DNA of 37,376 nucleotides from Arcobacteraceae bacterium. Lineage in GTDB: Bacteria; Campylobacterota; Campylobacteria; Campylobacterales; Arcobacteraceae. The stretch is taken from positions 1-37,376 of the forward strand of contig JAOZMC010000014.1 in NCBI GenBank assembly GCA_029934475.1, written 5' to 3'. Of this stretch, positions 4,397-26,885 are shown piece by piece. The number at the start of each line of letters is the position of its first letter. Position 1 is the stretch's first letter. The notes under the pieces are model-generated. The model saw nothing but the letters and a program-made list of their open reading frames with translations. It did no database searches and was not told the DNA's origin. Made by a program: the position numbers and the translations under genes.

Positions 4397-5074
4397 CTAT
4401 TTTTTTTTGTGCCATTTTAAGCCACTAAACACAGCATCCATAGCACCCTCTTTTCTAAACACCGAGTTAAATATGGCCATATATATATGCACTACGACAA
4501 ATAGTATTACACCCCAAGTAGCTATATGATGAAGTTGTCTTACCCATGCAAGACCACCTAACATAACCTCTATGCTTCTCATGGGAGTATAAAGCAAAGC
4601 ACCTAATCCGTCGTGGTATGAGTGCACAAACAATATCAAACCAGTGATGATAAGTATAACCATCAGAATATAAAATATAAAATAAGCCATAAACTGTAGC
4701 GGATTGTAGTCCCCGCTTTGTTTTGGGTGTTTTGATACAAGTAGATAATACCCTATAGTCTGCGACCATACTTTTGGGTTGATCAGGTCCTTTATAGCTA
4801 GTCTTTCTCTCTCGTTGTCCTTTTCAAATATAAAAAAATATGTTTTGTATATTATAGCACCTATCAAAACAAAACCCAATATCATATGCCAACTTCGAAA
4901 AAGTGCGTTCATGAAGTTTGTGGGTTCTGCATTGACTGCTGGTGTCACAAAAGGCATCGCTAGATAAAATCCAGTGATAGTAAGCCCTACGATAGACACC
5001 GCTCTGATCCAGTGTTGCCATCTATAAGCAGCACCAAACTCAACTTCTCTTTTCATCTCTATATTTGCTTCCAT
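4397..5074 (-). CDS. hydC: [NiFe]-hydrogenase cytochrome b subunit HydC
   Basis: Membrane anchor of the uptake hydrogenase. It passes electrons from the HydA iron-sulfur clusters through two b hemes to menaquinone. The 225-residue protein has about four transmembrane helices. Histidines in expected places include the N-terminal WQHWIR, RSWHMILG on helix II, and RQLHHIATW plus VVHIYMA near the C-terminus, which fit heme ligation in the HyaC/HydC family. The gene is preceded by AGGAG and starts 9 bases after the hydB stop. Family and role are secure; exact ligand assignment is by eye. Confidence 0.93.
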   Translation of the reverse strand: MEANIEMKREVEFGAAYRWQHWIRAVSIVGLTITGFYLAMPFVTPAVNAEPTNFMNALFRSWHMILGFVLIGAIIYKTYFFIFEKDNERERLAIKDLINPKVWSQTIGYYLLVSKHPKQSGDYNPLQFMAYFIFYILMVILIITGLILFVHSYHDGLGALLYTPMRSIEVMLGGLAWVRQLHHIATWGVILFVVVHIYMAIFNSVFRKEGAMDAVFSGLKWHKKK

Positions 5075-5083
5075 CTTGAACTC

Positions 5084-6820: not shown

Positions 6821-6835
6821 AATTTCTCCTTTTTC

Positions 6836-8059
6836 TTATTCTTTTGGCGGTTTTATGGCCGCAATTGTCGCATGCGCTGCTATACCTACTGCTGTAAGTG
6901 TCAGCAATCCTATACCTATCTTGTCGGCGGTCGCATCTGCTCCCAGCCCACCAAATGTAGTCTGATATAGTCTATCTTTGAGTGGTTCTCCGACTACTCC
7001 CATAGTATCCCAGAAGTCAGGCTCACTACAACCCATACACCCAAAACCAGCTTGCACCGGCCACGATGTGCCTTGGTTGAACTTGTTTTTTGAACAGTTG
7101 TTAAATGTATACGGACCTTTGCATCCTACTTTGTATAGACAGTATCCCTCTTTTGCTCCATCATCGCCAAATTGTTCTACAAACTCACCTGCATCAAAAT
7201 GCCCTCTTCTCTCACATAGGTCATGAACTCTTCTTTTATAAGCCCATAAAGGTCGGTTATAAGCATCTAAAGCTGGCAGCGTTCCATATAGCAAAAAGTG
7301 CAAAAGTGTTCCAACTATATTTTTCTCACTTGGAGGACAGCCAGGGACATTTATGACAGTTTTGCCAGTAGCTTCGCTCATAGATACAGCTCCTGTAGGG
7401 TTTGGTGATGCCGCTTGAACTCCACCAAATGACGAGCAAGTGCCTATAGCAAATATCGCCGCCGCGTCGGAGGCCGCTTCATTTGCTCTATCTACACCTT
7501 TTTTGCCATGTCCGCCTATGGTCAAAAACTCACCATGATTGTTCATAGGTATAGCACCCTCAACCATCAGCACATATCTACCCTTATATTTTTCCATAGC
7601 ATTTTCTAGATTTTGTTCTGCTTGCCAACCAGATGCCGTCATGAGTGTCTCATGATACTCTAGTGATATATGGTCAAATATCAAGCTATCTATAGATGGA
7701 TTTTCCGACCGCAAAAGTGACTCAGAACATCCAGTACATTCTGCCATATGTAGCCATATTATAGGCAACCTGTCTGCTAACTCGGCCGCTTTTGCTACTA
7801 GTGGTGTGAAGCTACCTGGAAGCGATAACATAGCACATGCCGCTGTCGCCCACTTCATGAAGTCTCGTCTGTCTATACCTTTTTCTTTTAAACTCTCTTT
7901 AAGTGATACATCATGCATGGCAGGAAGTTTTTCTAGCTGCTCTATTCTGTTGTCTAAATCAATTTTGAGTTGTTTGTAGTATTTGTCATCATTGTTTATG
8001 CCTGTATTGACACCGTTTGATTTGAACATCGATGTCAACAATTCTCTTCTTTTTTCCAT
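6836..8059 (-). CDS. hydA: [NiFe]-hydrogenase small subunit HydA (Tat substrate)
   Basis: Iron-sulfur electron-transfer subunit. The chosen start gives 407 residues beginning MEKRRELL, because a perfect TAGGAG lies 7 bases upstream; an in-frame ATG at 8095 would add 12 residues but lacks such a site. A Tat motif DRRDFMKW followed by a hydrophobic stretch occurs about 65 residues in, so the n-region is unusually long, as in other epsilon HydA proteins. Cluster motifs include ECTGCSES (proximal), then GCPPSE and later cysteine groups such as GFGCMGC. A C-terminal hydrophobic helix (about the last 30 residues, ending AIKPPKE) anchors it beside HydC. It shares a leader region with a TATAAT box. 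Confidence 0.95.
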   Translation of the reverse strand: MEKRRELLTSMFKSNGVNTGINNDDKYYKQLKIDLDNRIEQLEKLPAMHDVSLKESLKEKGIDRRDFMKWATAACAMLSLPGSFTPLVAKAAELADRLPIIWLHMAECTGCSESLLRSENPSIDSLIFDHISLEYHETLMTASGWQAEQNLENAMEKYKGRYVLMVEGAIPMNNHGEFLTIGGHGKKGVDRANEAASDAAAIFAIGTCSSFGGVQAASPNPTGAVSMSEATGKTVINVPGCPPSEKNIVGTLLHFLLYGTLPALDAYNRPLWAYKRRVHDLCERRGHFDAGEFVEQFGDDGAKEGYCLYKVGCKGPYTFNNCSKNKFNQGTSWPVQAGFGCMGCSEPDFWDTMGVVGEPLKDRLYQTTFGGLGADATADKIGIGLLTLTAVGIAAHATIAAIKPPKE

Positions 8060-8086
8060 ATTTTCTCCTATTTTATATTTATTAAA

Positions 8087-8103
8087 TTGAATCAAAGATT
8101 CAA
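8087..8103 (-). repeat. Hairpin TTGAATC-AAA-GATTCAA before hydA
   Basis: A perfect 7-base inverted repeat with a 3-base loop lies 28 bases upstream of the hydA start. The stop codon of the 12-codon leader ORF falls at its apex. It is too AT-rich and lacks a T tract to be a normal terminator; it may be an operator or a leader structure. Confidence 0.5.
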
Positions 8104-8130
8104 CTCCCCGCTATCATTGACTTTTGCCAT
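8092..8130 (-). CDS. Putative 12-residue leader peptide upstream of hydA
   Basis: A tiny ORF encoding MAKVNDSGELNL starts with ATG placed 5 bases after AAAGGAG, as good a ribosome site as any in the window. It ends at a TGA inside the hairpin at 8087-8103, 33 bases before hydA. It could be a translated leader that couples or controls hydA translation, or the remnant of a longer gene. No family is recognised. Existence as a translated peptide is inferred from signals only. Confidence 0.4.
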   Translation of the reverse strand: MAKVNDSGELNL

Positions 8131-8157
8131 TTTTCTCCTTTTTTTAAAAACTTTTGT

Positions 8158-8163
8158 ATTATA
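8158..8163 (-). promoter_or_regulatory. Likely -10 box (TATAAT) for hydA operon
   Basis: On the minus strand TATAAT occurs within the 155-base gap between hypF and hydA, about 28 bases before the leader ORF and about 100 bases before hydA. No good TTGACA lies at the proper distance; this is usual for Campylobacterota sigma-70 promoters, which rely on the -10 box and upstream AT-rich periodicity. Confidence 0.55.
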
Positions 8164-8214
8164 CAATTTTTTTGCTTAATTTAACCTAGAAATATCAATA
8201 TTTTGGAAAATTTG

Positions 8215-10410
8215 TCAAATTTGCCCCAAACATATTGCACCATCGTTGGGTGACAAAGTATTTGATATAGTTATATTTGCTATCTTTTCTTTGAGCAATC
8301 GCACCAAAACTGGACTCTGAAACACACCACCACCCAACACTATAGGCAAGCTCCCTTTTATATATATTTTATATATGATATCCACTAGAGTTCTATAAAA
8401 TTTTGATATTATCAAGATTTTATTTTCTTTGTCATCTATTATCTGTGTTATCATCTTTGAGATATCAATTTTATCTTTTTTTATATCATAGTTATAATTT
8501 TTTGTTATATTATCATCAAAATACTGCTCCATCATAGCTCCGCTTTGTCCTTCGTAAGTTATAGTATGTATCAAGCCACACAACGATGCCACAGCATCAA
8601 ACAGCCTACCCACAGAGGATGAAAGTGGAGTGTTGATATCTTTTTGCCACATGATATACATAGAGCTTAACTGTTGTGCCGAAAAATATCTCACAGAACC
8701 TATATCCATATCTATAGTTTGTTTGCCATATATATCAAAGAGCAACGACACAGCTACTCGGGAGGGTTCTTTTATAGCTTTGTGGCTACCTATGAGTTTA
8801 AACGGTTTGAAGCTACAGATTCTGTCATAATCATCGCCATCGCATACTATAAACTCACCACCCCAAGCAGTGCCATCCTCTCCATATCCTGTGCCGTCCC
8901 ACGATATACCTAGCACTTTTGTAGTGATATTTTGCTCTATCATCACTGACTTTATATGTGCATAGTGGTGCTGGACTTTTTTTGTCTTGATATTTTGCCT
9001 ACTTGCATATTTTGTTGTCTCATAGGCAGGATGTTTATCTGTAGATATAATATCTGGTTTGAAGTTATATATATTTTTCAAGTTGTTTGTGCTTGTTTCA
9101 AAGTGTTTTATAGACTTGACACTATCTATATCGCCAATATGTGGCGACACTATAGCTGTGTTTTCAAATGCTATACATACTGTTGATTTTTGATTTGCTC
9201 CTACACACAATACATTTTTTTCTAATTTTTTGTGTAACTTTATAGCAAGAGGTGCGAAGCCACGAGCCACCCTATAAAACAGTGGCTTATCTTTGACTAC
9301 ACACAGCACACTATCATCGCTACTGTTTATGATATCTCTGTTGTATTCTAGACAATAGTCCCATATATCTTTTAGCTCGTCTATATCGGCAGAGTTCATA
9401 CAAAGTGGCTCACCGCTTATATTTGCACTTGTGGCGACTATAGGTATATCTAGCAGATCCAAAAGCAACATATGCAAAGGACTATAACCCAAAAACAGCC
9501 CAACCTTATCTATATCCGGTGCTATATATTTAGACAATATGTTGTTTGGCTTTTTGCCTAGCACTACTATGGGTCGCTGATAACTTTGTAGATACTCTTG
9601 TTCTTTTGTGTTTATGTGGGCTAGCTTTTTTGCTGTGTCTATATCTCTTGTCATCACAGCAAATGGTTTGTGTGGTCTTCGCTTTCTTTGTCGTAGTAGC
9701 GACACAGCCCTGTCATCTGTGGCATCGCATACTAGATGGTATCCTCCTACACCTTTGATAGCGACTATCAAGCCAGCTTTGATCTGTTTTGCTGTTTGTG
9801 TTATCATATCTTGTTGTGAAGTTTTGACATCTTTGTCCCTGTCTCGTAAATTTAACACAGGACCACAATCGTGACAACCTATGGGCTGGGCATGATACCG
9901 TCTATCTGTAGGGTCGGTGTATTCTGTGGCACATTTTTCACACATAACAAACTTATCAAATGATGTATTCTCTCTATCATATGGCAACGACTTGATGATA
10001 CTCCATCTAGGACCACAAGAGACACAACTGATAAAAGCATAGCCATATCGCCTGTTGTTTGGGTTTGTTAGCTCATCTTCGCACTGCTTACATATAGATA
10101 TATCTGGCGATATTTTTGTGTGTTGTTGTTTGGTTGCTTTGGTTTTGATGATACTAAAATCGGCGAAACTTTTAGATGCTACTTGCATATACGATATTTT
10201 ATCTATCTTTGCTAGTGGCGGTTTGTCTCTGTTTATATCATTGACAAAATTTTCTATAGTTTTGTAGTCGCAGTTTATCTCTATCTTGACACCATACGAG
10301 TCGTTGTACACCACTCCACACAGACCATATCTTGTAGCTTGATTGTATATAAACGGGCGAAAGCCCACACCTTGGACTACACCACTGACTGCTATGTCGT
10401 AACTATTCAC
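8215..10410 (-). CDS. hypF: Carbamoyltransferase HypF ([NiFe]-hydrogenase CN ligand synthesis)
   Basis: HypF makes carbamoyl-AMP from carbamoyl phosphate and transfers the carbamoyl group to HypE, the first step in making the two cyanide ligands of the Fe atom. The 731-residue protein shows all domains: acylphosphatase with VQGVGFRPF (Arg18), two zinc fingers (CKQC 107-110 with CVSC 129-132; CEKC 157-160 with CHDC 179-182), a YrdC-like domain at about 200-390, and a Kae1-like domain with HHYAH at 481-485 and GGGVFQSP near the end. The start is GTG with a weak ribosome site, 21 bases after the DUF2147 gene. The other hyp genes are not in this window. Confidence 0.96.
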   Translation of the reverse strand: MNSYDIAVSGVVQGVGFRPFIYNQATRYGLCGVVYNDSYGVKIEINCDYKTIENFVNDINRDKPPLAKIDKISYMQVASKSFADFSIIKTKATKQQHTKISPDISICKQCEDELTNPNNRRYGYAFISCVSCGPRWSIIKSLPYDRENTSFDKFVMCEKCATEYTDPTDRRYHAQPIGCHDCGPVLNLRDRDKDVKTSQQDMITQTAKQIKAGLIVAIKGVGGYHLVCDATDDRAVSLLRQRKRRPHKPFAVMTRDIDTAKKLAHINTKEQEYLQSYQRPIVVLGKKPNNILSKYIAPDIDKVGLFLGYSPLHMLLLDLLDIPIVATSANISGEPLCMNSADIDELKDIWDYCLEYNRDIINSSDDSVLCVVKDKPLFYRVARGFAPLAIKLHKKLEKNVLCVGANQKSTVCIAFENTAIVSPHIGDIDSVKSIKHFETSTNNLKNIYNFKPDIISTDKHPAYETTKYASRQNIKTKKVQHHYAHIKSVMIEQNITTKVLGISWDGTGYGEDGTAWGGEFIVCDGDDYDRICSFKPFKLIGSHKAIKEPSRVAVSLLFDIYGKQTIDMDIGSVRYFSAQQLSSMYIMWQKDINTPLSSSVGRLFDAVASLCGLIHTITYEGQSGAMMEQYFDDNITKNYNYDIKKDKIDISKMITQIIDDKENKILIISKFYRTLVDIIYKIYIKGSLPIVLGGGVFQSPVLVRLLKEKIANITISNTLSPNDGAICLGQI

Positions 10411-10883: not shown

Positions 10884-12440
10884 TTACTTTTTGATACTCT
10901 CTTTGTATGCTTTTAGGCTTCGTTTTTCGTAGTTGTTTAACTTTTTTTTGTTTTTCATATTTTGTTTATATATCGTCTGACCAAAAAGTCGTGGATAAAA
11001 TCGTCTGTTTTTATTTACAAAGTTATATTTACCTACAGGTATATTTGCCTTATAAGTTGTCAGCTCTTTTTGTGTTTTGGTATCTAAAACGACTATCTCG
11101 CCATCGGCTTCATACAAGCTCAAGTATGCTAGCTTTCCATCGCCACTATATTCTGTGTGTATGTATTGCTTGCCTTTTCGTGGGACTATCACTCTTTTTT
11201 TGTATGTTTGTTTGTCTATCAGCACTAGCTCGTCGCTTCCGTTGTCTGCCCACAAATACGGAGTATATGGATGAGTTTTCACAAAAAACCCATCGCCCCC
11301 TGTATTTATCTGTCGGACCAACTTCCAGTCATACATCTGCCACACAGTCACATAGGGCTTTCGTATATGCGGAGTAGCAAAATAAAACTGCCCATCATTG
11401 TACCAATAAGTAGCACTAAAAAGATGCGGCATACCCTCCATACTTTGTTCGAACTTTACTTTAAAATCTTTTAAGCTGACTACTTTCATACTCTTGCCAC
11501 CACGAGAAGTAGCTATGATAAACTCCTCAAAAGGCTCTATGAAAAAATCCTCTATAGGCTCCTCTATTTTTATATATTTTATATCCAAAGTTTTGGTATC
11601 TAGCATACCGATGAGCGGTTTGTCTCTATAGGTCCACATAGCCCTATCTTTGCTATAGAACTCATACAAAGCACTCACCTTACCATCTAGTGGCACTATC
11701 TTTTGGGTTTTCATACTCTTGATATCGGATATCACTAGCTGTTTGGGTAGTAGGCATGTGGTCAGTAGATTTTTGCCATCTTTTGATATTGATAGATTTC
11801 GCAAGTTTATACATGCTCGTATCTTTGGCTCTCGCTTGCCTGTTTTGAGTGAATACTTTTGCACCCAGCCGTCTCTTGTCGGGACAAATATAAACTCACC
11901 ATAATTTTCTTTATTCATAGTATATTTGATACCGCCGTGCACATGGTCTAGATGAAACTTGCTCAAAATTTTCTCACCCTCCATGACCCATACTTTGTCA
12001 CCCTCTCGCTCCACTACTGGCAAAACTTGTTCTATATCTTGTATCTTTAGGGGATTTGCCCTGTCTTTAAAAGTAGTCAAGCTACCATCTATATCTTTTT
12101 TGTTCCATACTATGTTTTGGCTTAGTGGTTTTTTGATATAGCGGACTATCTGTAGCAGTTCATAAGGATTTAGAAACTCATATTTGGGCATGAGAGTTTG
12201 TGGGAAGCCATTTTTGATCTTTTGTGCTAAATTCATTCTTTTATATGCTCTCAAACTTTTTTTGTGTAGTGGTGGACCGTCTAATCCTACTCTATCTATG
12301 TGATGACACATAGCACAGTGGGTATCGTATAGCTTCTTGCCCATATCTACAGACGGCAAAGCCTCAACCATATGTCCAGCCGCACCATCTACGGCAAACA
12401 GCCTACCAACTACAATCAAACCAACCAACAAAACTCTCAT
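10884..12440 (-). CDS. NirN-like cytochrome c / cytochrome d1 domain protein
   Basis: A periplasmic protein of 518 residues: signal peptide (about 1-20), one cytochrome c domain with CAMCHH at 42-47, then a d1-type eight-bladed propeller running to about residue 480. Typical NirN/NirF-like stretches are HVHGGIKY, RDGWVQKYSL, NLRNLSISKDGKNLL, MPHLFSATYW, GGDGFF and a terminal PVGKYNF. NirN of Pseudomonas is the dihydro-heme d1 dehydrogenase that finishes heme d1 for NirS; NirF lacks the c-heme domain in most proteobacteria, so NirN is the better match. An extra lysine-rich tail of about 35 residues follows the propeller. ATG is preceded by AAAGGAT. The rest of the heme d1 pathway (nirJ and others) is outside the window. 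Confidence 0.8.
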   Translation of the reverse strand: MRVLLVGLIVVGRLFAVDGAAGHMVEALPSVDMGKKLYDTHCAMCHHIDRVGLDGPPLHKKSLRAYKRMNLAQKIKNGFPQTLMPKYEFLNPYELLQIVRYIKKPLSQNIVWNKKDIDGSLTTFKDRANPLKIQDIEQVLPVVEREGDKVWVMEGEKILSKFHLDHVHGGIKYTMNKENYGEFIFVPTRDGWVQKYSLKTGKREPKIRACINLRNLSISKDGKNLLTTCLLPKQLVISDIKSMKTQKIVPLDGKVSALYEFYSKDRAMWTYRDKPLIGMLDTKTLDIKYIKIEEPIEDFFIEPFEEFIIATSRGGKSMKVVSLKDFKVKFEQSMEGMPHLFSATYWYNDGQFYFATPHIRKPYVTVWQMYDWKLVRQINTGGDGFFVKTHPYTPYLWADNGSDELVLIDKQTYKKRVIVPRKGKQYIHTEYSGDGKLAYLSLYEADGEIVVLDTKTQKELTTYKANIPVGKYNFVNKNRRFYPRLFGQTIYKQNMKNKKKLNNYEKRSLKAYKESIKK

Positions 12441-12588
12441 ATAAAATCCTTTGGACTATTGTATCCAAATAAATATAAAAACACCTCTAAAAAGTCTATA
12501 TCTTGTAGTATTCAAATACACAAACAGGCAAATTGTCCATTGTATTTTTATATTATTGTTGAGATACTGTTCATTTTGTTTCAAGCCA

Positions 12589-13317
12589 TCATTTTATCTT
12601 TGGTAATTTTAATATCATATTGTTACCCAATGTCATGTTGTCACTATGACCTGATATTTTTTTGTCTTTTGTCATAAAATGAATATGCATACTGGTTGTA
12701 TGGTGTGTATAGATTCCACTATGATACATAGAAAAAAACCCCAACATTGACACGGCTTTATCTTTCATGGTGCCATATATGCCCGACTGGGCATGTTTTT
12801 TGTGAGTGTGAACTTTGTCGTTTGGGTCCCAATTTATGATGTGCCAACTGTTTGATTTGATAGTTCCGTCTATCAAAAATATAAAAGGTTTTTCAGTATC
12901 CAATCCATGTTGTTCTGCTTTTTCTTCCAAAAACTGCTCAAATTGTTCTCTTGATATGACACTATTTGGTATCGTGTATTCTACCCACTCTTTGACTTGT
13001 GCATATACAAGAAGCGAAGCATTTTTGTTGTATGTGTGGTCGTATTGTAGCTTATTGTCTTTGTCTACAAATGTCGTCATTACGAGACTATCAAAAATTT
13101 GCACTTCACCTTTCAAATATCCAACCGCACCTAAAGCATATAAATTTTTTTTGTCTTTTAAACTTGCCAGTTTAATTTTTGGTGTCAGGTCGCCTTTTTT
13201 CATCGCATTGTTCAAAGCACCTGCGTAGTTTATCTCTTTGTTCCATGTTGTTCTTGAACAACCACTGAAAAATAATATAACAGATACAAACAAGATAGTA
13301 TATATTGATTTTAGCAT
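12589..13317 (-). CDS. Lipoprotein with acetolactate-decarboxylase-like fold
   Basis: The 242-residue protein has a lipoprotein signal peptide ending FFSGCS (lipidated Cys20), so it should sit in the outer or inner membrane facing the periplasm. The body resembles alpha-acetolactate decarboxylase: AVGYLKGEVQIFDS corresponds to the conserved early Gly/Glu strand, IFLIDGTIKS to the middle strand, and MHIHF-(10 residues)-GH gives His211, His213 and His224, with the same 2 and 11 spacing as the zinc ligands His194, His196, His207 of the Bacillus brevis enzyme. The chain ends 18 residues after the last His, so the C-terminal catalytic Glu of true decarboxylases appears absent. It sits between nirS and the NirN-like gene with its own promoter. 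A metal-binding periplasmic role is inferred; enzyme activity is doubtful. Confidence 0.68.
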   Translation of the reverse strand: MLKSIYTILFVSVILFFSGCSRTTWNKEINYAGALNNAMKKGDLTPKIKLASLKDKKNLYALGAVGYLKGEVQIFDSLVMTTFVDKDNKLQYDHTYNKNASLLVYAQVKEWVEYTIPNSVISREQFEQFLEEKAEQHGLDTEKPFIFLIDGTIKSNSWHIINWDPNDKVHTHKKHAQSGIYGTMKDKAVSMLGFFSMYHSGIYTHHTTSMHIHFMTKDKKISGHSDNMTLGNNMILKLPKIK

Positions 13318-13342
13318 TTTAGATCCTTTTATAAATTGTCAT

Positions 13343-13348
13343 AGTATA
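13343..13348 (-). promoter_or_regulatory. Likely -10 box (TATACT, extended TG) for the ALDC-like lipoprotein gene
   Basis: The minus strand reads TGGTATACTATG about 25 bases upstream of the lipoprotein start, an extended -10 element. Because a strong terminator separates nirS from this gene, a separate promoter is expected here. Confidence 0.5.
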
Positions 13349-13433
13349 CCAGATATTTATAAAAGGTAGCTCTAACTAAAAAATAAATAACTTATTTTGT
13401 AAATGAATTGTTGTAGCTCAATATTTTTCTGTA

Positions 13434-13446
13434 GAACTTAAAGTTC
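13434..13446. repeat. 13-base palindrome GAACTTAAAGTTC
   Basis: A perfect inverted repeat (GAACTT-A-AAGTTC) lies about 85 bases upstream of the TATACT box and 27 bases beyond the nirS terminator stem. It does not match an FNR/CRP half-site pair. It could be an operator for the lipoprotein gene; no regulator is identified. Confidence 0.35.
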
Positions 13447-13461
13447 CACAAAAAAGCACTT

Positions 13462-13499
13462 AAAACAAAAAACCCCCAAGTCTCAAAGAGACTCGAGGG
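13462..13499 (-). terminator. Rho-independent terminator after nirS
   Basis: A 12-base-pair stem (arms 13473-13484 and 13488-13499) with a 3-base loop is followed on the minus strand by TTTTTTGTTTT. Two imperfect positions become G-U pairs only in the minus-strand RNA, which fixes the direction. It lies 28 bases past the nirS stop codon and ends the nirS transcript. Confidence 0.88.
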
Positions 13500-13526
13500 C
13501 TGGTAAAAAACTATGTGGATACTGTA

Positions 13527-15176
13527 TTAGTAAGTATCTGTCATAGTGTTTGTAACATTAAACTTACCTGTAGGAGTGACAAGTCTTTTGTCATCTATTA
13601 CATGTTTTAGCTTAAGTGTTTTTGAATCATATACAAGGATAGGTGTGTTAACCATCTTGTTACCCCATATACTTGTCCATACTTCGCTACCATCTGCATT
13701 GAACTCAAAGTGAACTGGTCCTCTTGAAATTATTTTTTTGCCTTTTTTACCTTTATATACTGGCAAATATTTTGCAGGTATTTTGATAGTTTTTACAATC
13801 TCTAAACTCTCTTTGTCCATAACATAGATTTGTGTTTGAAGTTTTCTATCTGGATTTACTGGTCTGTCTATAAATATATAAGGACTATTTGGATGACCTT
13901 TTATAAATAAGTTACCTCCACCTTTTCCAGGAAGTGATACTTTTTTCACAACTTTCCAAGCATTTTTCGCATGATCTTCTGGGTCTGTTCCTATAAATAC
14001 AATATCATTTGAACCTATATGTCCTGTTCCCCAGATTGGTCCATATTTTTTAGAATCAATATTGACACCACGACCAGGGTGAGGTTTTTTTCCTTGTGAT
14101 GGTATGTTTGCAACTAGTTTGCCTTTTTTAGTATCTATGACAGATATTATGTTTTTAGCATTTGCTGCAGTCAAGAAGTATCTTTTAGATAGATCCCAAC
14201 CACCATCGTGAAGAAATCTTTCAGCTTCTACCATAGTTATCTTTGGATTTTTAATATCGCTATAGTCATATAGCCATACTTGACCTGATTCTTTTACATT
14301 GATTACCCATTCTGGTTTGTGGTGCGATGCAATAATAGCAGCCGCTCTAGCTTCTCTTGTAAATACACCTTTGTCTATAGTATAACTAGCAGTTGATACT
14401 ATCTTGATAGGCGATAAAGTTTCAGCATCAAGTGTTACAATCGATGGTGGCCAATAACAACCAACAACTGCATATTTGTCCAAATAGTCTTTGTGTTTTG
14501 ATGTATCAATAGCTCTTGCATCGTTACATGGTCGAATCTCAGCTACATTTGCTGGTTTTTTCATCCACATATCTATCATAGATGCTTTTCCATCTCTACC
14601 GATGACATACATATATCTACCACTTGCACTTGTTCTAGTGATATGTGTAGCAAAGCCTGATTTAACTACAGAGAGTACTTTTTTTGTTTTACCATCTACG
14701 ATAGCTATCTTACCAATATCTCTCAAAATTACTGCAAAGTTGTCTTTCCAGTTTTTATTTTGTGGTGATTTTGGTCTTTTTGCCACAGGGATCAGAACCT
14801 TGTGGCTCTTTTTCATGTCAACTATAGACTTTTCTGGAGGCATAGGTGCTTTTATCTGCACATATTTTGCCATAAGCGAAGTTTCAGCTTTTGTTAGTTC
14901 TCCACTTTTGCCCCAACCTGGCATACCACCTGGTGTCCCGTTGTTGATGATATACTTCAATGTAGCAGTTCCCATCGCTTTTGTTTTCTTTGGTTCTAAG
15001 TTTGGTCCTAAAGCACCTTTTCTTAGCATTCCATGACAACCAGCACATCTATCGAAATAGACCTGTGTCGCTTTCTTCATCTGACTCTTTGAGAGCTTGA
15101 CGCTCTTCGCATTTGCCGATATAGTTAGTCCTAAGACTGCTACTAAACCAGCTATTATGATCTTGTTAAATTTCAT
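13527..15176 (-). CDS. nirS: Cytochrome cd1 nitrite reductase NirS
   Basis: Periplasmic enzyme reducing nitrite to nitric oxide. The 549-residue precursor has a Sec signal peptide (MKFNKIIIAGLV...SANAKS), a cytochrome c domain with CAGCHG at 44-49 and a d1 propeller. Conserved d1-site stretches are present, including the two active-site histidines in ASHHKPEW and PHPGRG, plus FLHDGGWD, GTDPEDH and the closing LVTPTGKFNVTNT. A strong AAAGGAG precedes the ATG. Codon use differs from the neighbours: many ATC/ATT isoleucines rather than ATA, as expected of a highly expressed gene. It appears monocistronic, with a TATAAT box upstream and a terminator downstream. Confidence 0.97.
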   Translation of the reverse strand: MKFNKIIIAGLVAVLGLTISANAKSVKLSKSQMKKATQVYFDRCAGCHGMLRKGALGPNLEPKKTKAMGTATLKYIINNGTPGGMPGWGKSGELTKAETSLMAKYVQIKAPMPPEKSIVDMKKSHKVLIPVAKRPKSPQNKNWKDNFAVILRDIGKIAIVDGKTKKVLSVVKSGFATHITRTSASGRYMYVIGRDGKASMIDMWMKKPANVAEIRPCNDARAIDTSKHKDYLDKYAVVGCYWPPSIVTLDAETLSPIKIVSTASYTIDKGVFTREARAAAIIASHHKPEWVINVKESGQVWLYDYSDIKNPKITMVEAERFLHDGGWDLSKRYFLTAANAKNIISVIDTKKGKLVANIPSQGKKPHPGRGVNIDSKKYGPIWGTGHIGSNDIVFIGTDPEDHAKNAWKVVKKVSLPGKGGGNLFIKGHPNSPYIFIDRPVNPDRKLQTQIYVMDKESLEIVKTIKIPAKYLPVYKGKKGKKIISRGPVHFEFNADGSEVWTSIWGNKMVNTPILVYDSKTLKLKHVIDDKRLVTPTGKFNVTNTMTDTY

Positions 15177-15216
15177 AATTATCTCCTTTTTTTGTTTTGG
15201 CTTTTAAACCTTTGTA

Positions 15217-15222
15217 ATTATA
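15217..15222 (-). promoter_or_regulatory. Likely nirS -10 box (TATAAT)
   Basis: The minus strand reads GTGTTATAATTAC about 40 bases upstream of the nirS start, between the nor-operon terminator and nirS. No clear FNR/NarL-type operator was found by eye around it. Confidence 0.6.
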
Positions 15223-15247
15223 ACACAAAATACTTAAATCTATTCTA

Positions 15248-15280
15248 AATATAGCGAAATTTGTAAAATTTCGCTATATT
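15248..15280 (-). terminator. Perfect 15-bp hairpin ending the nor operon
   Basis: A perfect inverted repeat (A + ATATAGCGAAATTT and its complement, 3-base loop) lies 9 bases past the stop of the last nor-operon gene. No long T tract follows on the minus strand, so it may act as a terminator or an RNA 3'-end stabiliser. Direction is assigned from position. Confidence 0.65.
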
Positions 15281-15289
15281 CTCATATTT

Positions 15290-15442
15290 TTAAGCCTCTG
15301 ATTCCAATCGACTCTTCTCTTGTTTGTATATCCATATCATCGGCAACACTATAATTGTATGCAAAAATAGTGTCAAGGCCATAGGGTATTGATTTAAAGT
15401 GCCAAAAAAACTCGGCACCATATCGGTAAACGGTTCAAACAT
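15290..15442 (-). CDS. 50-residue single-helix membrane protein downstream of norB
   Basis: The small protein starts MFEPFTDMVPSFFGTLNQ, has one transmembrane helix (about residues 19-38, MALTLFLHTIIVLPMIWIY) and a charged C-terminus KQEKSRLESEA. The ATG at 15442 was chosen because AAGGAG lies 7 bases upstream; a longer upstream reading would run inside norB. It begins 10 bases after norB and ends just before the operon hairpin, so it is the last nor gene. It could be a small accessory subunit of the NO reductase, comparable in size to CcoQ-type subunits of heme-copper oxidases. No family is recognised. Confidence 0.72.
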   Translation of the reverse strand: MFEPFTDMVPSFFGTLNQYPMALTLFLHTIIVLPMIWIYKQEKSRLESEA

Positions 15443-15452
15443 AATATTCTCC

Positions 15453-16889
15453 TTATTTTTCGTTTTGTGGATTTTTGCCAATAGACAATAAATCTTTGAC
15501 CAAATAGACAAATCCAGCTAAAATCACAACGCCAAGAACCAATCTCCATGCCATAGCTTGTGTATACCATAAAGTATCTTGAGCTATGAAAAATGCATCC
15601 CAAGTAGCGCCCATAGATGCTCTCTCAACCAATACTTGCTGATATCCAGCGATAGTGAGTGTTACACCCATTGCCAGCATACCGAAGTTTAGAAGAAAAA
15701 GTGCCATCTTGCTATCAAAAGTCATTTTCATCCTTGTGATACCATTTGTTCCTTGGACTGCTAAATAAAATATACCTATAAGTATAGTCGCATATGCTCC
15801 GAAAAATGCTAGATGCCCGTGAGCGCTTGTAAATTGTGTTCCGTGAGTATATATATTGACTTGTGGCAATGTATGGAAAAATCCCCAAACACCAGCACCA
15901 AGAAAGTTGCCAAATGCATTTGCAAAGAACCAAGTCAATGCAGGCGTATTTGCTATAGTAGACTCTTCGCCTCGCTCTTTTGCTGCTCCTTGTTGTTTGC
16001 CCCAGTCATATGTAACATGTATAAACATAGCAACCAGTGGTAGTGGCTCAAGTGAGCTAAACAAAGCTCCTATCTCCCACCAATACTCAGGTGTACCTAT
16101 CCAAAAGTAGTGATGGCCTAGTCCTAGTATACCAGAACCAAATAGCATGGCAACTTCTATCCATAGCCACATCTCGACTATCTGTCTTTTTGCACCGATG
16201 ATTTTGATCAAACCATATGCAGCAAATACACCGACTAGCACTTCCCAAGTAGCTTCAACCCACAAGTGGATTACCCACCACCACCAAAATTGATCCATAG
16301 ATATGTTATCTGTAAACCATATTCCAGCTAGGTATAAACCAACCAGAGCTATCATATCTGCCATTAGGACAGTTACGATACCAGTTCGTGTGCCTTTGAT
16401 AGCAGTCAAAAATACATGCAGCAAAAATCCTACAAGCACTACAGCTATACCTATATCAGCCCATCGTGGAGCTTCTATATACTCTCGTCCTTCGTTTATA
16501 AACCAAATACCTACATTTAGTCCCATGATCTCAGTCGTAGTATCGCCATATTGTATAAGAATATAAACCAACACAACTACAGTAACTGCAGCAGTAAGCA
16601 CAGCAAAACCAAGTTTAGCTAAGCCAACACCTACTACTTCTATGCCTGTCTCATCTGGCAGCATCCAATAAGCAGCACCGACCATAGCATAGACCATCCA
16701 TACTACTAGAGCATTGATATGCACCATTCTTGCTACTGAAAAATCAAAGATCTCAAAAAGAAAACTAGGATATACAAACTGTATTGCAGCTATAAGACCC
16801 ATGAGTAATTGAGCTCCGAAAAGCACCACTGCTACGGTAAAATACCAAGTCGCGAGCTTTTGTCCTTCCCATTTTAAACTATTTGTCAT
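15453..16889 (-). CDS. norB: Nitric oxide reductase catalytic subunit NorB (cNOR)
   Basis: Membrane subunit that reduces 2 NO to N2O. The 478-residue, about 12-helix protein keeps all metal ligands: low-spin heme b His57 (MVHIN) and His359, high-spin heme b3 His357 (SAHGHLAFFG), and the non-heme iron site His208 (VIHLWVE), His259 and His260 (GLGHHYF), with the NOR-specific Glu212 four residues after His208. This identifies it as a NOR rather than an oxidase. No long N-terminal quinol domain is present, so it is the cytochrome c-dependent type served by NorC. The start overlaps the norC stop by 4 bases. Confidence 0.96.
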   Translation of the reverse strand: MTNSLKWEGQKLATWYFTVAVVLFGAQLLMGLIAAIQFVYPSFLFEIFDFSVARMVHINALVVWMVYAMVGAAYWMLPDETGIEVVGVGLAKLGFAVLTAAVTVVVLVYILIQYGDTTTEIMGLNVGIWFINEGREYIEAPRWADIGIAVVLVGFLLHVFLTAIKGTRTGIVTVLMADMIALVGLYLAGIWFTDNISMDQFWWWWVIHLWVEATWEVLVGVFAAYGLIKIIGAKRQIVEMWLWIEVAMLFGSGILGLGHHYFWIGTPEYWWEIGALFSSLEPLPLVAMFIHVTYDWGKQQGAAKERGEESTIANTPALTWFFANAFGNFLGAGVWGFFHTLPQVNIYTHGTQFTSAHGHLAFFGAYATILIGIFYLAVQGTNGITRMKMTFDSKMALFLLNFGMLAMGVTLTIAGYQQVLVERASMGATWDAFFIAQDTLWYTQAMAWRLVLGVVILAGFVYLVKDLLSIGKNPQNEK

Positions 16890-17545
16890 TGGTTACCCCT
16901 TTTTTCATTTACTACTAAATTTTTCTTGCCAAAGTTTCGTGGGAAACCGTTGGTATCAATTGAACTCATATGTTTTAGAAATGCTACAAGACCTTTCGCT
17001 TCTTTTTCAGTAATACCAAGATTTGGCATCGCTTTTGAATGCATCACATTTCCTGAAGGATCCATCAAAAACTTTGCTATACCTTCTTCTTTTGTAGGAG
17101 CACCCAAAAACGCAACTTCGTCCCATTTTGGATCAAGCCAAGCTTTGGTCAAATCCGGAGCATAATATGCACCGTTTCCAAGCAATGTGTGGCAGTTCAT
17201 ACAGTTTTTGACCTGTGAAGCTAGTTTTCCTATGTGCAATAGTTTTCCTGCTTCCTCTTCGCTGTAGTCATCTCTACCAAAAAATTTCTCTTTCTCACCA
17301 ATGATTGGCACCTCATGACCTCTTTTTTCATTAAACTGATATTTAATGTTGTAGTTGATAACAGTAGGTCCTGGAACCCTTTTTGCTATACCACTTTTAA
17401 GGTCATTGTCATCTCCCATTTGGATTTGAGCAAGCGTATCAAATGTAAGCCATATTAGCAATACAGCTGAAAAGCCAGTTATCCAGCCTGCTGATCTCAT
17501 CCAAAATCGATTGTCTGTCCATACAGACACTGTTCGTTTTGACAT
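16886..17545 (-). CDS. norC: Nitric oxide reductase cytochrome c subunit NorC
   Basis: Membrane-anchored cytochrome c that feeds electrons to NorB. It has 219 residues: one N-terminal transmembrane helix (about 18-38) and a periplasmic domain with CMNCHT at 115-120, the following GNGAYYAPDLTKAW typical of NorC, and a likely axial Met in KAMPNLGI. The ATG follows a strong AAAGGAG. It overlaps norB by 4 bases (ATGA) and lies 20 bases after a small membrane protein gene. Longer than Pseudomonas NorC (about 146 residues) because of an insert between the helix and the heme domain. Confidence 0.95.
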   Translation of the reverse strand: MSKRTVSVWTDNRFWMRSAGWITGFSAVLLIWLTFDTLAQIQMGDDNDLKSGIAKRVPGPTVINYNIKYQFNEKRGHEVPIIGEKEKFFGRDDYSEEEAGKLLHIGKLASQVKNCMNCHTLLGNGAYYAPDLTKAWLDPKWDEVAFLGAPTKEEGIAKFLMDPSGNVMHSKAMPNLGITEKEAKGLVAFLKHMSSIDTNGFPRNFGKKNLVVNEKRGNQ

Positions 17546-17565
17546 CTATTTTCTCCTTTTTCTTT

Positions 17566-17937
17566 TTATTGTTCGTATCGTTGTTCTGATCTTTGATTGA
17601 GATAATAATATAGATGAGGCAGTATAAGATAGCCCACCATAGCTATCATAAGCACCTTAACTGTAAAACTATCGCCACCCAAAGCGTCAGCCACAAAATA
17701 CAAACAATACGTCTGAAGTATCCAAAAGATATATGCAAAAGGCATATATATGCTTTTTAGATACCCCATCTTAACCAATGTGTATATTGCCACATAAAAC
17801 AGCCCAAATAACAAAACGGCAGATGAAGATAAAAATATAGGAAGAAACATATCCAGAGGAATCTCCGGCAAGTTTAAAAATGGTGCATCCAGTATAATCA
17901 CTATCAATCCTTTCGCCTTGAAAAAAAGCTGAGCCAT
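17566..17937 (-). CDS. Small three-helix membrane protein heading the nor operon
   Basis: A 123-residue (ATG at 17937) or 111-residue (GTG at 17901) protein. The GTG is better supported because AAAGGA lies 6 bases before it, while the ATG has no visible ribosome site. About three transmembrane helices are seen: FLPIFLSSSAVLLFGLFYVA, YMPFAYIFWILQTYCLYFV and VLMIAMVGYLILPHLYYYL. The C-terminus is charged (NQRSEQRYEQ). It is the first gene after the divergent promoter region and 20 bases before norC, so it is probably co-expressed with NO reductase. I do not recognise the family; a NOR assembly or accessory role is inferred only from position. Confidence 0.68.
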   Translation of the reverse strand: MAQLFFKAKGLIVIILDAPFLNLPEIPLDMFLPIFLSSSAVLLFGLFYVAIYTLVKMGYLKSIYMPFAYIFWILQTYCLYFVADALGGDSFTVKVLMIAMVGYLILPHLYYYLNQRSEQRYEQ

Positions 17938-17969
17938 TTTATCTAAATAAACTTAATGAAACTCAAAAA

Positions 17970-17975
17970 ATTATA
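17970..17975 (-). promoter_or_regulatory. Likely -10 box (TATAAT) for the nor operon
   Basis: The minus strand reads AATAATATAATTTTTT about 32 bases before the first possible start of the nor operon. It lies in the 152-base divergent region shared with the ccoNOP-like operon. Confidence 0.5.
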
Positions 17976-18046
17976 TTATTTACAAAATTTTACAAATTGT
18001 TGGATTTTAATAAACGAATTTGGGGAAATTTATATTTTTATGATAT

Positions 18047-18052
18047 TATAAT
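18047..18052 (+). promoter_or_regulatory. Likely -10 box (TATAAT) for the ccoNOP-like operon
   Basis: TATAAT occurs 37 bases upstream of the chosen start of the CcoN-like gene, in an AT-rich stretch. It is divergent from, and about 70 bases from, the nor -10 box, so one regulator could act on both. Confidence 0.5.
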
Positions 18053-18089
18053 AATAAAATTTATATTTAAAATATTAAAGGATATGCTT

Positions 18090-19547
18090 ATGCCAAATAG
18101 CACGGCTATTAATTATGATTATAGTATCGCAAGAGCATTTGCTTTTGCTACTATATTGTTTGGTATCTTGGGTCTGCTTATGGGTGTCATCATAGCATGG
18201 CAGTTGGTGTATCCTGAGCTAAACAACCTAGCAGGACAATACGGAACTTATGGCAGATTGAAGCCATTATATACAAATATCATGATATATGGCTTCACTC
18301 TTAGTGCTGTGTTTGCTACTTGGTATTATATAGGACAAAGAGTTTTGAAAGTCTCTATGAGAGTGTCGCCGTTTTTGATGAAAGTCGCTAGGCTACACTT
18401 TGTGCTATATTTTATCACTATTTTTCTAGCAGTTGCTACATTGTCGGCTGGTATAACTACAGCAAAGGAGTATGCTTCACTGTCGTGGACTATTGATTTG
18501 TTGGTCATGATATGGTGGATACTATGGGGTGTATCTATCTTTGGTCTTATGCGTTTGAGAGGTGAAAATATTATCTCTGTGAGTGTTTGGTATTATATAG
18601 CTACATATATACTGTTTGGTATAGTATATATCTTTAGCAATATTGAGATACCTACTATGTTTTTTGCCGATGGAGCTTTTAGCAACAAAATGTATTCAAT
18701 ATCGGTATATATTGGCAGTAGCGATACCATGGCACAATGGTGGCAGAGCTATGATGTGGCAAAAGTTATAACTATTTTTCCTATTGTTGCTATGATATAC
18801 TATTTTTTGCCAAAGCAAAGCGGTCAAAATATATATTCACACAAGCTAGCATCGCTATCATTTTGGGGATTGGTATCTCTCTTTTTTTGGACTGGTGGTC
18901 AAAATCTAGCATATCTGCTTGTGCCAAATATGATGCAAACTATCAGCTTGACTGTGTCTGTGATATTTGTATCGTTGTTGTGGGGAGTTGCGATCAATCT
19001 GCTGTTGACCTTCAGAGGCGAGTGGAACACTCTTGTAGATAATAGTATCCTCAAATTTTTTGTTGCTGGAGTTCTGTTTTTTATGTTGTATACTATACAA
19101 TACATAAAACCAGTCCGCGATATAGCTAGCTTCACAGACTGGAACACACACTTCGCTATGATAGGCTGGGTAGGTTTCGTGGTTACAGGGGGGTTGTATC
19201 ATGTCTATTCTCATGTGTATAAAAGACAGATAGATTCAAAACGACTTGTGGCGATACACTTTTGGCTTCAGACAGTGGCTGTATTGATATATTTTTCATC
19301 TATGCTGATAGCTGATATCGTCCAAGATATTATGTGGAAAAGCTACGACGAGTATGGTTCTTTGACCTATTCGTTTGTAGATATTTTCAATATGCTTCTA
19401 CCATACCATATAGCAAAGGCAGTAGCTGTATCGCTATATCTTTTAGGATTTGTGATATTTGCTATAAATTTGTACAAAACTACTACATCTGGCAAAACAG
19501 TTAAACAAACACAGATGAAATCCACAAAGAAAAAAGGAGAAAAATAA
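18090..19547 (+). CDS. CcoN-like (cbb3 oxidase subunit I family) protein lacking active-site ligands
   Basis: A 485-residue, about 12-helix protein clearly of the CcoN family: TYGRLKPL, MIYYFLPKQS, AIHFWLQT and MWKSYDEYGSLTYSFVD align without gaps to typical CcoN. The functional residues are gone. By eye, low-spin heme His60 becomes Tyr61, CuB His207 becomes Tyr221, CuB His257/His258 become Gln271/Asn272, the cross-linked Tyr251 becomes Phe265, and the heme b3 ligand is Asn352; only His354, at the second low-spin position, remains. It therefore should not reduce O2 or NO. The ATG at 18090 was chosen because AAGGA lies 7 bases upstream; an earlier ATG at 18084 is too close. It is followed by CcoO- and CcoP-like genes and is divergent from norCB. 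Function unknown. Confidence 0.85.
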   Translation: MPNSTAINYDYSIARAFAFATILFGILGLLMGVIIAWQLVYPELNNLAGQYGTYGRLKPLYTNIMIYGFTLSAVFATWYYIGQRVLKVSMRVSPFLMKVARLHFVLYFITIFLAVATLSAGITTAKEYASLSWTIDLLVMIWWILWGVSIFGLMRLRGENIISVSVWYYIATYILFGIVYIFSNIEIPTMFFADGAFSNKMYSISVYIGSSDTMAQWWQSYDVAKVITIFPIVAMIYYFLPKQSGQNIYSHKLASLSFWGLVSLFFWTGGQNLAYLLVPNMMQTISLTVSVIFVSLLWGVAINLLLTFRGEWNTLVDNSILKFFVAGVLFFMLYTIQYIKPVRDIASFTDWNTHFAMIGWVGFVVTGGLYHVYSHVYKRQIDSKRLVAIHFWLQTVAVLIYFSSMLIADIVQDIMWKSYDEYGSLTYSFVDIFNMLLPYHIAKAVAVSLYLLGFVIFAINLYKTTTSGKTVKQTQMKSTKKKGEK

Positions 19548-20215
19548 TGTTTCATGGGCTAGAACAAAGAGCGTTTTTTTTTACTGCTGTGTTGGTATTG
19601 GTCGTGAGTCTCGCTGGAGTTATAGAGATGATACCTAGCCTTGCGATACAACCATCACAGCCGATAGTAGTTGCCAAACCATACACGGTGCTAGAGCTAG
19701 CAGGTCGTCAAGTATATATAAAAAATGGCTGTATCGCTTGTCATACACAGAAAATAGAACCAATCAAACATGAGACAGATAGGTATGGCACATATAGTGT
19801 CAGTGGTGAGTATGCTTATGACAGACCGCTTTTATGGGGTTCTAGTCGAACTGGACCTGACCTACTAAGAGTAGGCAACCGCAGGACTACGGATTGGCAT
19901 GAAATCCATATGAAAGACCCTACATCTGTAGTGCCGACTAGTGTTATGCCATCATATAAACATCTATTTGAAAACAGAGCAGACATAGCCACAGCTTATG
20001 CAGATGCAAATACACAAAAACAGGTTTTCGGTGTGCCTTATGACAAAGCAGATATGCCATCGCTTGGAAGTTGGTATGAAGCAAATGCTCAAGCTATAAA
20101 AGAAGCGACTTTGCTAGTAGCAGATATGAAAAACCCAAAAGTCAAAGAGATAGTAGCAGACGGACAGATACCGCAGATAGTAGCTCTCATAGCATATCTA
20201 AACACTAGAAGATAA
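19547..20215 (+). CDS. CcoO-like membrane cytochrome c (cbb3 oxidase subunit II family)
   Basis: A 222-residue protein with one N-terminal transmembrane helix (about 9-30) and a periplasmic mono-heme domain, CIACH at 62-66. The CcoO hallmarks remain: ETDRYGTYSVSGEYAYDRP, WGSSRTGPDL, DWHEIHMKDP and the axial Met in SVMPSY. Unlike the CcoN partner, nothing essential seems lost, so it should bind heme c and transfer electrons. The ATG overlaps the last base of the CcoN-like stop codon and has GGAG upstream. In cbb3 oxidases CcoO passes electrons to CcoN; here the acceptor is unknown. Confidence 0.9.
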   Translation: MFHGLEQRAFFFTAVLVLVVSLAGVIEMIPSLAIQPSQPIVVAKPYTVLELAGRQVYIKNGCIACHTQKIEPIKHETDRYGTYSVSGEYAYDRPLLWGSSRTGPDLLRVGNRRTTDWHEIHMKDPTSVVPTSVMPSYKHLFENRADIATAYADANTQKQVFGVPYDKADMPSLGSWYEANAQAIKEATLLVADMKNPKVKEIVADGQIPQIVALIAYLNTRR

Positions 20216-20230: not shown

Positions 20231-20902
20231 ATGAAGTTTTTGATATTTTGTGGAGTGTTATTTGTCATAGCTATAGTTGCAGGCACATATTATGCTGTAA
20301 TTGATTTTTATATATTTAGTAGCGACAGCATAGACTATACGGCAGTGTTTGTGGTCCTATCTATAGTTGTGTTTATATTTTTGGGATACATAAATCAAAT
20401 CAAAAATGGCAAAACCATATCCAAATTGTCAGCACAGGACGATGATAGCACAGATGAAAATAAAAATCCCATACCTACAGGTTGGTGGCTACTATCTGCT
20501 GGTGCGATAGTATGGGCGATAGGGTATTGGATAGTGCTGTATCCTACAGATCAACCAACACAAACAGATAAATATGACGATACTATCGTCAAGCATATAG
20601 AAAAATACAAATACACTCTCAAAAATACAGACAAAAACAGTTTGGTCGCTATGGGACAGACTCTGTTTTCGGTGTATTGTGTCTCGTGCCACGGAGCAGA
20701 CAGTGAGGGCATGCAGGGTATAGCCAGAGACTTAACATTGCCAAAATATCAAGACTACGCAGTAGCTGGTTTGAGCGATGTCATACAGACAGGCAAAAAG
20801 GGCGAGATAGGACAGATGCCTAGTTTCGCAAAGATGATTACTGCCAAACAGACAGAAGCAGTGTCTGCTTATATATTGTCATTGGGAGCTAAAAATGACT
20901 GA
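20231..20902 (+). CDS. Mono-heme CcoP-like membrane cytochrome c
   Basis: A 223-residue protein with two N-terminal hydrophobic segments (about 5-27 and 37-55), then the CcoP signature NPIPTGWW (about 79-86) leading into a third helix that ends WIVLYP, and one cytochrome c domain with CVSCHG at 150-155 and a likely axial Met in GQMPSF. Normal CcoP (about 290-300 residues) carries two c hemes; this one has a single CxxCH and is shorter. AAAGGA precedes the ATG, 15 bases after the CcoO-like gene. No CcoQ gene is present in the operon. It probably forms a complex with the two upstream proteins. Confidence 0.85.
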   Translation: MKFLIFCGVLFVIAIVAGTYYAVIDFYIFSSDSIDYTAVFVVLSIVVFIFLGYINQIKNGKTISKLSAQDDDSTDENKNPIPTGWWLLSAGAIVWAIGYWIVLYPTDQPTQTDKYDDTIVKHIEKYKYTLKNTDKNSLVAMGQTLFSVYCVSCHGADSEGMQGIARDLTLPKYQDYAVAGLSDVIQTGKKGEIGQMPSFAKMITAKQTEAVSAYILSLGAKND

Positions 20903-25881: not shown

Positions 25882-25938
25882 ATGAAAAAACTCTCAATAT
25901 ATCTATAGCCCACAAAAAACCTATCAAAAAACCGAAGT

Positions 25939-26139
25939 TTATTTCATATTGTATTTTTGTTTGAACTTGTCGATACGACCTGTAGCATCTACCATAGTTC
26001 GCTCACCAGTGAAAAACGGATGACAAGACGAACATACATCTATGTTCATGATATCCGTGTTTGACTTGGTCTCAAAGCTGTTGCCACAGGCACATGTGAC
26101 CTTGCAAGCTACAAAGCTGGGGTGTATATCTTTTTTCAT
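25939..26139 (-). CDS. rpmE: 50S ribosomal protein L31
   Basis: A 66-residue L31 of the zinc-binding (C+) type: Cys at ACKVTCACG and [11 protein letters not shown], with the conserved start MKKDIHP and tail [18 protein letters not shown] precedes the ATG. It heads the rpmE-rsmI unit. Confidence 0.97.
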
Positions 26140-26277
26140 AATTGTCCTTTTTTGTTTATTTTATCGTTTTTTGCTTAAACTATCTCAAAAATACAAAAGT
26201 TAGATAAATATAGTCCAATATCGTGTCTGTGAAGTTTATCTAATAAATTTTAGATACAATAAACAAAAAGGATAAAA

Positions 26278-26307
26278 ATGTCAAACATACTTAACTTTCG
26301 CACCTAA
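26278..26307 (+). pseudogene. Truncated gene start (MSNILNFRT-stop) cut by the repeat element
   Basis: An AAAAAGGATAAAAATG start signal typical of this genome is followed by only nine codons before a stop supplied by the repeat element that begins about 26288. A TACAAT box lies just upstream. It looks like the 5' end of a gene destroyed by the insertion. The original product cannot be identified. Confidence 0.4.
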
Positions 26308-26360
26308 AACCAAGTAGATTTTCAGTAACACTCCTTAATACTCCTATAATATTAGTAAAA
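26289..26360 (-). repeat. Left inverted end of the decayed element
   Basis: Matches the right end in reverse complement over about 70 bases with a 4-5 base gap near the inner boundary. The minus strand remains open for about 40 codons from 26420 to 26289. Confidence 0.75.
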
Positions 26361-26566
26361 TCCTCATTTCTATTGACAACTTCATCAATTTTGGCTATCT
26401 CGTCAAGGATAGATCTTAACTTTCGCACCTAATTTTTTAAAATAATATCAAGCAATCCAATAAAACCAATTTTTTATCAAATATAAATAGAGTTCTTGAT
26501 AATAACTACAAATCTTATTCGAGTTAAAATAACATTTACAAAAAAGCTGCTTAAAGGCTTTTTAGG

Positions 26567-26605
26567 TATAATATAGATATAAAATAAGGAGTTTTGTCTA
26601 TGTAA
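26567..26605 (+). pseudogene. Start signals of a lost element gene: TATAAT, AAGGAG, ATG-TAA
   Basis: TATAAT (26567-26572), AAGGAG (26586-26591) and ATG (26600) are correctly spaced, but the second codon is TAA. A neighbouring frame then reads IINAKLRNPIYKVIQLLSRK before further stops. This is best explained as a decayed transposase-type gene whose end is at the right repeat. Confidence 0.45.
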
Positions 26606-26703
26606 ATTAACCTAAAATAATCAATATTATAAATGCCAAATTAAGAAACCCAATATACAAAGTTATCCAACTATTAAGTAGGAAATTATTTAAAAAAAAG
26701 TAA

Positions 26704-26780
26704 TTTTACCAAACTAGTATTATAGGAGCATTAAGGAGTGTTGCTGAAAATCTGCCAGGGTTTAGGTGCGAAAGTTAAGT
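26704..26780 (+). repeat. Right inverted end of the decayed element
   Basis: Plus-strand copy of the terminal repeat, ending GGTGCGAAAGTTAAGT at 26780. It holds the last ~20 codons of the former element gene. Confidence 0.75.
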
Positions 26781-26840
26781 AAATAGGATTGAAAAAGTAT
26801 CAAAAATATCATCTCACCTAAAAAATATTTTATTTTTTGC

Positions 26841-26846
26841 TATACT
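26841..26846 (+). promoter_or_regulatory. Likely lgt operon -10 box (TATACT, extended TG)
   Basis: TTTTTTGCTATACTTTAAAC lies 40 bases before the lgt start, with a T-rich stretch upstream. It probably drives the ten-gene housekeeping run. Confidence 0.55.
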
Positions 26847-26885
26847 TTAAACTTATTTAGATAAAATAACAAAATAAGGAAAAAT

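Follow-up and report, generated by a model that had tools for sequence, protein, structure and literature searches.

Within a stretch of 37,376 nucleotides (the window), which is contig 6 of a 97% complete genome of 1.52 Mb (G000) and has as its closest named relative an Arcobacteraceae MAG (JAOZTH010000017.1, GMC7.metabat2.111), lies a gene of the cbb3-type cytochrome c oxidase family whose product lacks nearly all metal ligands of an oxidase core subunit. The question raised by this locus is whether such a protein is an error, a pseudogene or a subunit kept for another purpose, and in the last case, what it could do. An earlier note, made from the sequence of the window, had argued for the last of these.

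Identity of the protein and loss of its metal ligands

The gene, here called ccoN' (P0001; 18090..19547, forward strand), starts with the ATG at 18090, with AAAGGA just upstream, and its frame of 485 codons is unbroken, as had been claimed earlier. Its product (485 aa, 12 predicted transmembrane helices) is a full-length CcoN homologue, with an aligned identity of 33-34% to CcoN proteins of solved structure. The nearest solved structures were all CcoN (9g6b_A, 1.7e-86; P. stutzeri CcoN, 3mk7_A, E=9.7e-84). The Pfam COX1 profile (PF00115) scored 183.7 bits on the protein, far over the cut-off of 34.8, and TIGR00780, the ccoN equivalog, 425.4 bits, below the curated cut-off of 583.15. The structure predicted by AlphaFold (pLDDT 78, pTM 0.83) reached a TM-score of 0.82-0.85 to 3mk7, with low confidence around the old active site (residues 208-216 and about 340-350). 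Search against solved structures, tree and model all place the protein with catalytic CcoN in its 12-helix fold and common descent, and the matches by profile, structure search and full-length alignment uphold the claim that the overall CcoN framework is retained. Intact CcoN proteins have 219 conserved columns, of which 125 are kept both here and in the copy found in another species of the genus (G001): 47 of the 98 that fall in the core segment (205-358) or the deletions flanking it, vs 78 of the 121 elsewhere (P=0.02).

The ligand columns were read, in P. stutzeri numbering, from an alignment of the two ligand-less proteins with 48 intact Campylobacterota CcoN, in all of which, apart from this pair, the seven ligand and cross-link residues are present. 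Across these 50 sequences the replacements in the window protein are H60Y, H207Y, H257Q, H258N, Y251F and H345N, each falling exactly on a ligand column, so that what the earlier note had read by eye holds under alignment. On the forward strand, Tyr61 (18270..18272) replaces the low-spin haem b ligand His60, Tyr221 (18750..18752) the CuB ligand His207, Phe265 (18882..18884) the cross-linked Tyr251, and Gln271-Asn272 (18900..18905; Gln-Asp in G001) the CuB ligands His257-His258. In Asn352-Thr-His354 (19143..19151) the haem b3 ligand His345 has become Asn, and the low-spin His347 is kept as His354, the sole ligand remaining, as had been noted, and one of the two of the low-spin haem b pair. The three residues reported missing at the helix X motif are a real gap in the alignment: IPG is absent from the loop directly upstream of Asn352. 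An addition to the earlier description is a deletion of about four residues, the conserved Glu among them, in the helix IX motif STxEGPxxAIK. Displaced ligands have no room in the protein because conserved flanks fix the motif spacing (DW---NTHFAMIGW); a shifted alignment is thus ruled out, the flanking motifs pinning each column in all 50 sequences. Nor does the protein qualify as a NorB by FeB His triad, Glu and haem ligands, its CuB/FeB positions carrying no His. Since the ligands of haem b3 and CuB are gone and just one of the two low-spin ligands is left, the sequence and the established chemistry of the family predict that no haem b3-CuB pair can be bound in CcoN' and that O2 or NO reduction there is excluded. 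Extra conservation of the remodelled ligand regions, as a mark of a new active site, was also tested for, and the difference between the two species' proteins was not significant (73% vs 69% in the rest of the protein).

One could still suppose that CcoN' binds a single haem b through Tyr61 and His354 and serves as an electron relay or as a redox sensor responsive to NO or O2. Haem ligation by Tyr and His is known from haemophores. The retained ligand and the change of His60 to Tyr are identical in both species, in which Arg56 is kept and Arg417 and Arg443 are Lys, all of which would suit such a site. However, neutral replacement by Tyr is common as well, and the b3 and CuB sites are left without any ligand, for which reasons we regard an altered haem site as unlikely.

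The operon and its neighbourhood

The gene heads a compact operon on the forward strand. The start of ccoO' (19547..20215) overlaps the stop of ccoN', and 15 bases separate it from ccoP' (20231..20902). CcoO' is a mono-haem protein that passes TIGR00781 (265.1 bits vs a cut-off of 200.65), has its haem motif (CIACH) and axial Met (PTSVMPSY), and retains 74 of 95 CcoO-conserved columns, these two features included. CcoP' combines a FixP_N domain with one c-haem domain (CVSCH, QMPSF) and, with one CxxCH and not two, fails TIGR00782 (74 bits vs 179.95). No ccoQ stands between ccoO' and ccoP', and it is gone from the operon. The earlier note had not described this content, with its two intact c-type cytochromes; a cytochrome inventory by PF00034 gave 17 domain matches. 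The second CcoP haem was already missing in the intact operon of two further species, G002 and G003, whose apparently sole cbb3 oxidase has a single-c-haem CcoP (L056:3793-4476; L057:2314-2997).

A divergent intergenic region (17938..18089) is common to ccoN'O'P' and to orf123, norC and norB on the reverse strand. A TATTATAATA box within it is kept in G001, and no clear shared palindrome that could be a regulator site was found in this nor-cco' region. The reverse-strand genes begin with a small hydrophobic ORF (orf123, 17566..17937) without family match, which sits between norC and ccoN in G000, G001 and G002 and is 96-99% identical over 111 aa in the latter two (99% conserved in G001). They continue with norC (16886..17545), a mono-haem cytochrome c, norB (15453..16889) and a gene for a nirS-type cytochrome cd1 (13527..15176) identified by its family profile. 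NorB, which the earlier note held to keep all its ligands, does so when aligned to 3o0r, where the haem His and the FeB His and Glu residues are all present. Between nirS and a nirF-like gene, an ORF on the same strand (12589-13317) encodes a protein that resembles acetolactate decarboxylase (PF03306, 31 bits) and begins like a lipoprotein; it is 93% conserved in G001 and an odd member for a nitrite reductase cluster. The nirF-like gene itself (10884-12440, reverse strand) encodes a NirF/NirN-like protein that has a cytochrome d1 domain and a CxxCH of its own, and adjoins the cd1 nitrite reductase. Also adjoining the denitrification genes, and judged from translations, is a [NiFe] hydrogenase-like cluster (4397-10410, reverse strand) with a cytochrome b subunit and a hypF-like gene. 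On the other side of the operon, about 1 kb (25886-26885) holds no ORF of 90 aa and no tRNA or Rfam match.

Distribution and origin

The genus is represented here by four genomes (G000, G001, G002 and G003). The G001 copy of ccoN' is 70% identical to that of the window and gap-free over 485 columns, and it has the same deletions and the same ligand losses except that His258 is Asp instead of Asn. It comes from an independent MAG of another species, in the same ligand-less state, which rules out an error of sequencing or assembly, as had been argued earlier. Both genomes share the gene order nirF-like, budA-like, nirS, norB, norC and small ORF, followed divergently by ccoN', ccoO' and ccoP', and the motif GAYTGGAAYACNCAYTTY... 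(encoding DWNTHF.M.GW) was present in these two of 104 genomes of the family. When 397 Campylobacterota were scanned with TIGR00780 (up to three candidates per genome), a full-length CcoN below the cut-off occurred, among the matches listed, only in G000; further low scorers (G418, G436 and G462) lay on short or broken contigs and matched in part only.

In G002 an intact ccoN-ccoO-ccoQ-ccoP occupies the orthologous site, adjoining norC and the small ORF; the orthologous ccoN of G003 is intact too, its contig ending at ccoN, and synteny is visible only for G002. Neither a further CcoN nor a cytochrome bd was found in these two genomes, and since it is the only terminal oxidase found there, this ccoN presumably works. 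G000 and G001, in which cytochrome bd was also not found, carry an ordinary ccoNOP of foreign appearance elsewhere (C8/C45), on which, to judge from their gene content, they would depend for O2. In the tree, the two ligand-less proteins share a long branch next to those of G002, G003 and G022, and the ordinary CcoN that G000 and G001 also encode (G000c, G001c), 99.8% identical to each other, fall among CcoN from other families. Both the catalytic orthologue in sister species and the second, ordinary cbb3 oxidase add to what the earlier note had described. The simplest history would be that of a nor-linked oxidase in a lineage that gained a second oxidase by transfer and then lost the catalytic centre and ccoQ of the first, the gain probably preceding the loss. 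The nor-linked oxidase was apparently stripped once the second made it redundant.

Selection on ccoN'O'P'

The dN/dS ratio, proposed earlier as a check on the pseudogene alternative, was 0.15-0.20 for ccoN' between the two species (dN 0.187, dS 0.944; omega 0.198 by NG86 and 0.146 by YN00). The corresponding values were 0.20-0.38 for ccoO' and 0.26-0.31 for ccoP', as compared with 0.08 for norB, 0.07-0.10 for nirS and 0.01-0.02 for the ordinary ccoN. A branch codon model of ten Arcobacteraceae ccoN put omega at 0.039 for catalytic branches, as against 0.175 for the pair of ligand-less tips, a constraint some 4-5 times weaker than on catalytic CcoN; on the ligand-less stem omega was about 0.30, a rough value with dS near saturation. 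An omega of 1 on the tips was rejected at a cost of 74.6 log units (lnL -7981.8 vs -7907.2), and against a neutral expectation, at the observed dS, of about 66 stops for ccoN', 14 for ccoO' and 23 for ccoP', none was seen. Decay of homologues, which would have spoken against maintenance, was looked for as well, and the G001 gene proved intact and without indel over 485 codons. A pseudogene is thus ruled out by the unbroken frame, the rejection of neutrality and the lack of nonsense changes. By these sequence measures the protein is under constraint, if a weaker one than that on a working oxidase, and the claim that ccoN' is held by selection for a non-catalytic role is supported.

Amino acid identity between the two species is 69-71% for ccoN'O'P' and 93-96% for NirS and NorB, and this much faster change of the operon than of its neighbours also fits a weakening constraint. 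Synonymous divergence is higher too (dS 0.5-1.2 vs 0.25-0.58 in the adjacent nor/nir genes, 10884-17937); the excess may mean that the two ccoN'O'P' copies split earlier than the species. A slow decay, in which the arrival of a second ccoNOP made the nor-linked oxidase dispensable and its operon is drifting to loss, would agree with the fast evolution on stem and tips, with the loss of ccoQ and with the ordinary cbb3 oxidase that makes the operon redundant. Nevertheless, neutrality is rejected by 75 log units, the expected stops are absent from all three genes, the two CcoN' proteins differ by no indel, and the c-haem motifs and axial Met are retained. Decay as the main account is rejected on dN/dS, the codon model and the missing stops, and we consider drift toward loss quite improbable.

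A possible scaffold for c-type cytochromes

Sequence places CcoN' as a descendant of the cbb3 oxidase family (C-family haem-copper oxidases, CcoNOQP) that fails the defining catalytic features of that family. It shares with cbb3 oxidase the fold, the N-O-P order, the CcoO and CcoP cytochromes and full-length homology by direct descent, whereas the CuB and b3 ligands, the cross-linked Tyr, one low-spin ligand and ccoQ are missing, and CcoP has one haem. With cytochrome c-dependent NO reductase (NorCB), a chromosomal neighbour of the same superfamily, the resemblance is weaker: NorB of the window has its ligands, and CcoN' has no FeB site of the NorB kind and is much closer to CcoN in alignment. 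The orphan CcoN3 and CcoN4 of P. aeruginosa are likewise extra CcoN paralogs alongside a main cbb3 oxidase, and ccoN3Q3 is induced under denitrification; however, they are described as catalytic, working isoforms encoded without O and P (PMC5697931), while the sequence of CcoN' rules catalysis out, and O' and P' are encoded alongside it.

We hypothesize, with moderate confidence, that the stripped CcoN' is a membrane scaffold that holds CcoO' and CcoP' and lets electrons pass to denitrification enzymes. The ancestral nor-linked ccoNOQP would have lost its catalytic centre once a second cbb3 oxidase was present in the lineage, whether already there or newly gained; CcoN' would retain the 12-helix body, with no functional haem b3-CuB centre and probably no haem b, and would assemble with two membrane-anchored c-type cytochromes. 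The bc1 complex or a soluble cytochrome c could deliver electrons to CcoP', from which they would move on to CcoO'; with no haem b as acceptor, they could then exit laterally, either to NirS or to NorC at its periplasmic face. Previous studies, as cited in PMC8267372, indicate that a metal-less CcoN can act as scaffold, because R. capsulatus without CcoS, which is required for haem b, b3 and CuB, still has a CcoNOQP complex, and both cytochromes usually disappear with CcoN, which is needed for stable CcoO and CcoP. As cited there, that complex resembles the one proposed here in pairing a CcoN free of haem b, b3 and CuB with c-type subunits, and differs in being a laboratory mutant with normal ligands, whereas here the state is fixed in nature. 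Because a membrane body and intact cytochromes remain, and with this precedent, the reading that assumes least is a scaffold carrying a c-type relay of two haems. The place of the operon next to norCB and nirS suggests denitrification enzymes as the recipients of its electrons; this link is one of gene position, which is older than the ligand loss, and an inherited position proves little. The ligand loss, the intact cytochromes, the selection, the intact sister orthologue and the second oxidase can be read directly from the genomes, and the evolutionary part of the account is well supported by them; the electron-relay role we infer, and with it the assembly of N'O'P', the absence of haem b and the electron acceptor. 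It is very unlikely that CcoN' (or CcoO'/CcoP') instead mixes with subunits of the C8 oxidase to damp or redirect O2 respiration under denitrification, for although subunit mixing is documented in P. aeruginosa (PMC5697931) and both operons lie in one genome, CcoO' and CcoP' co-travel with CcoN' at a like rate, suggesting a separate complex, and the ordinary CcoN shows no matching acceleration.

The literature searched gave no report of a haem-copper oxidase core subunit that lacks nearly all metal ligands and is still under selection; that search for a ligand-less CcoN covered open-access full text and is a weak indication of absence. Members that have lost catalysis are familiar from many enzyme families. 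One practical consequence is that, as Pfam COX1 scores the ligand-less protein well over its cut-off, counts of ccoN in genome surveys do not equal counts of oxygen reductases. Returning to the scaffold, the genus offers a natural before-and-after pair, an intact nor-linked sole oxidase and a stripped version with a second oxidase beside it. The species pair makes the non-catalytic roles of CcoN (scaffolding, assembly of CcoO and CcoP, docking of partners) testable, and bears on how a proton-pumping oxidase converts to another role. More tentatively, an oxidase without catalytic metal centres may work through its c-type cytochromes alone, as an electron hub from the bc1 complex to the periplasmic and NorC-linked denitrification enzymes; if true, this would be a respiratory complex of a new sort.
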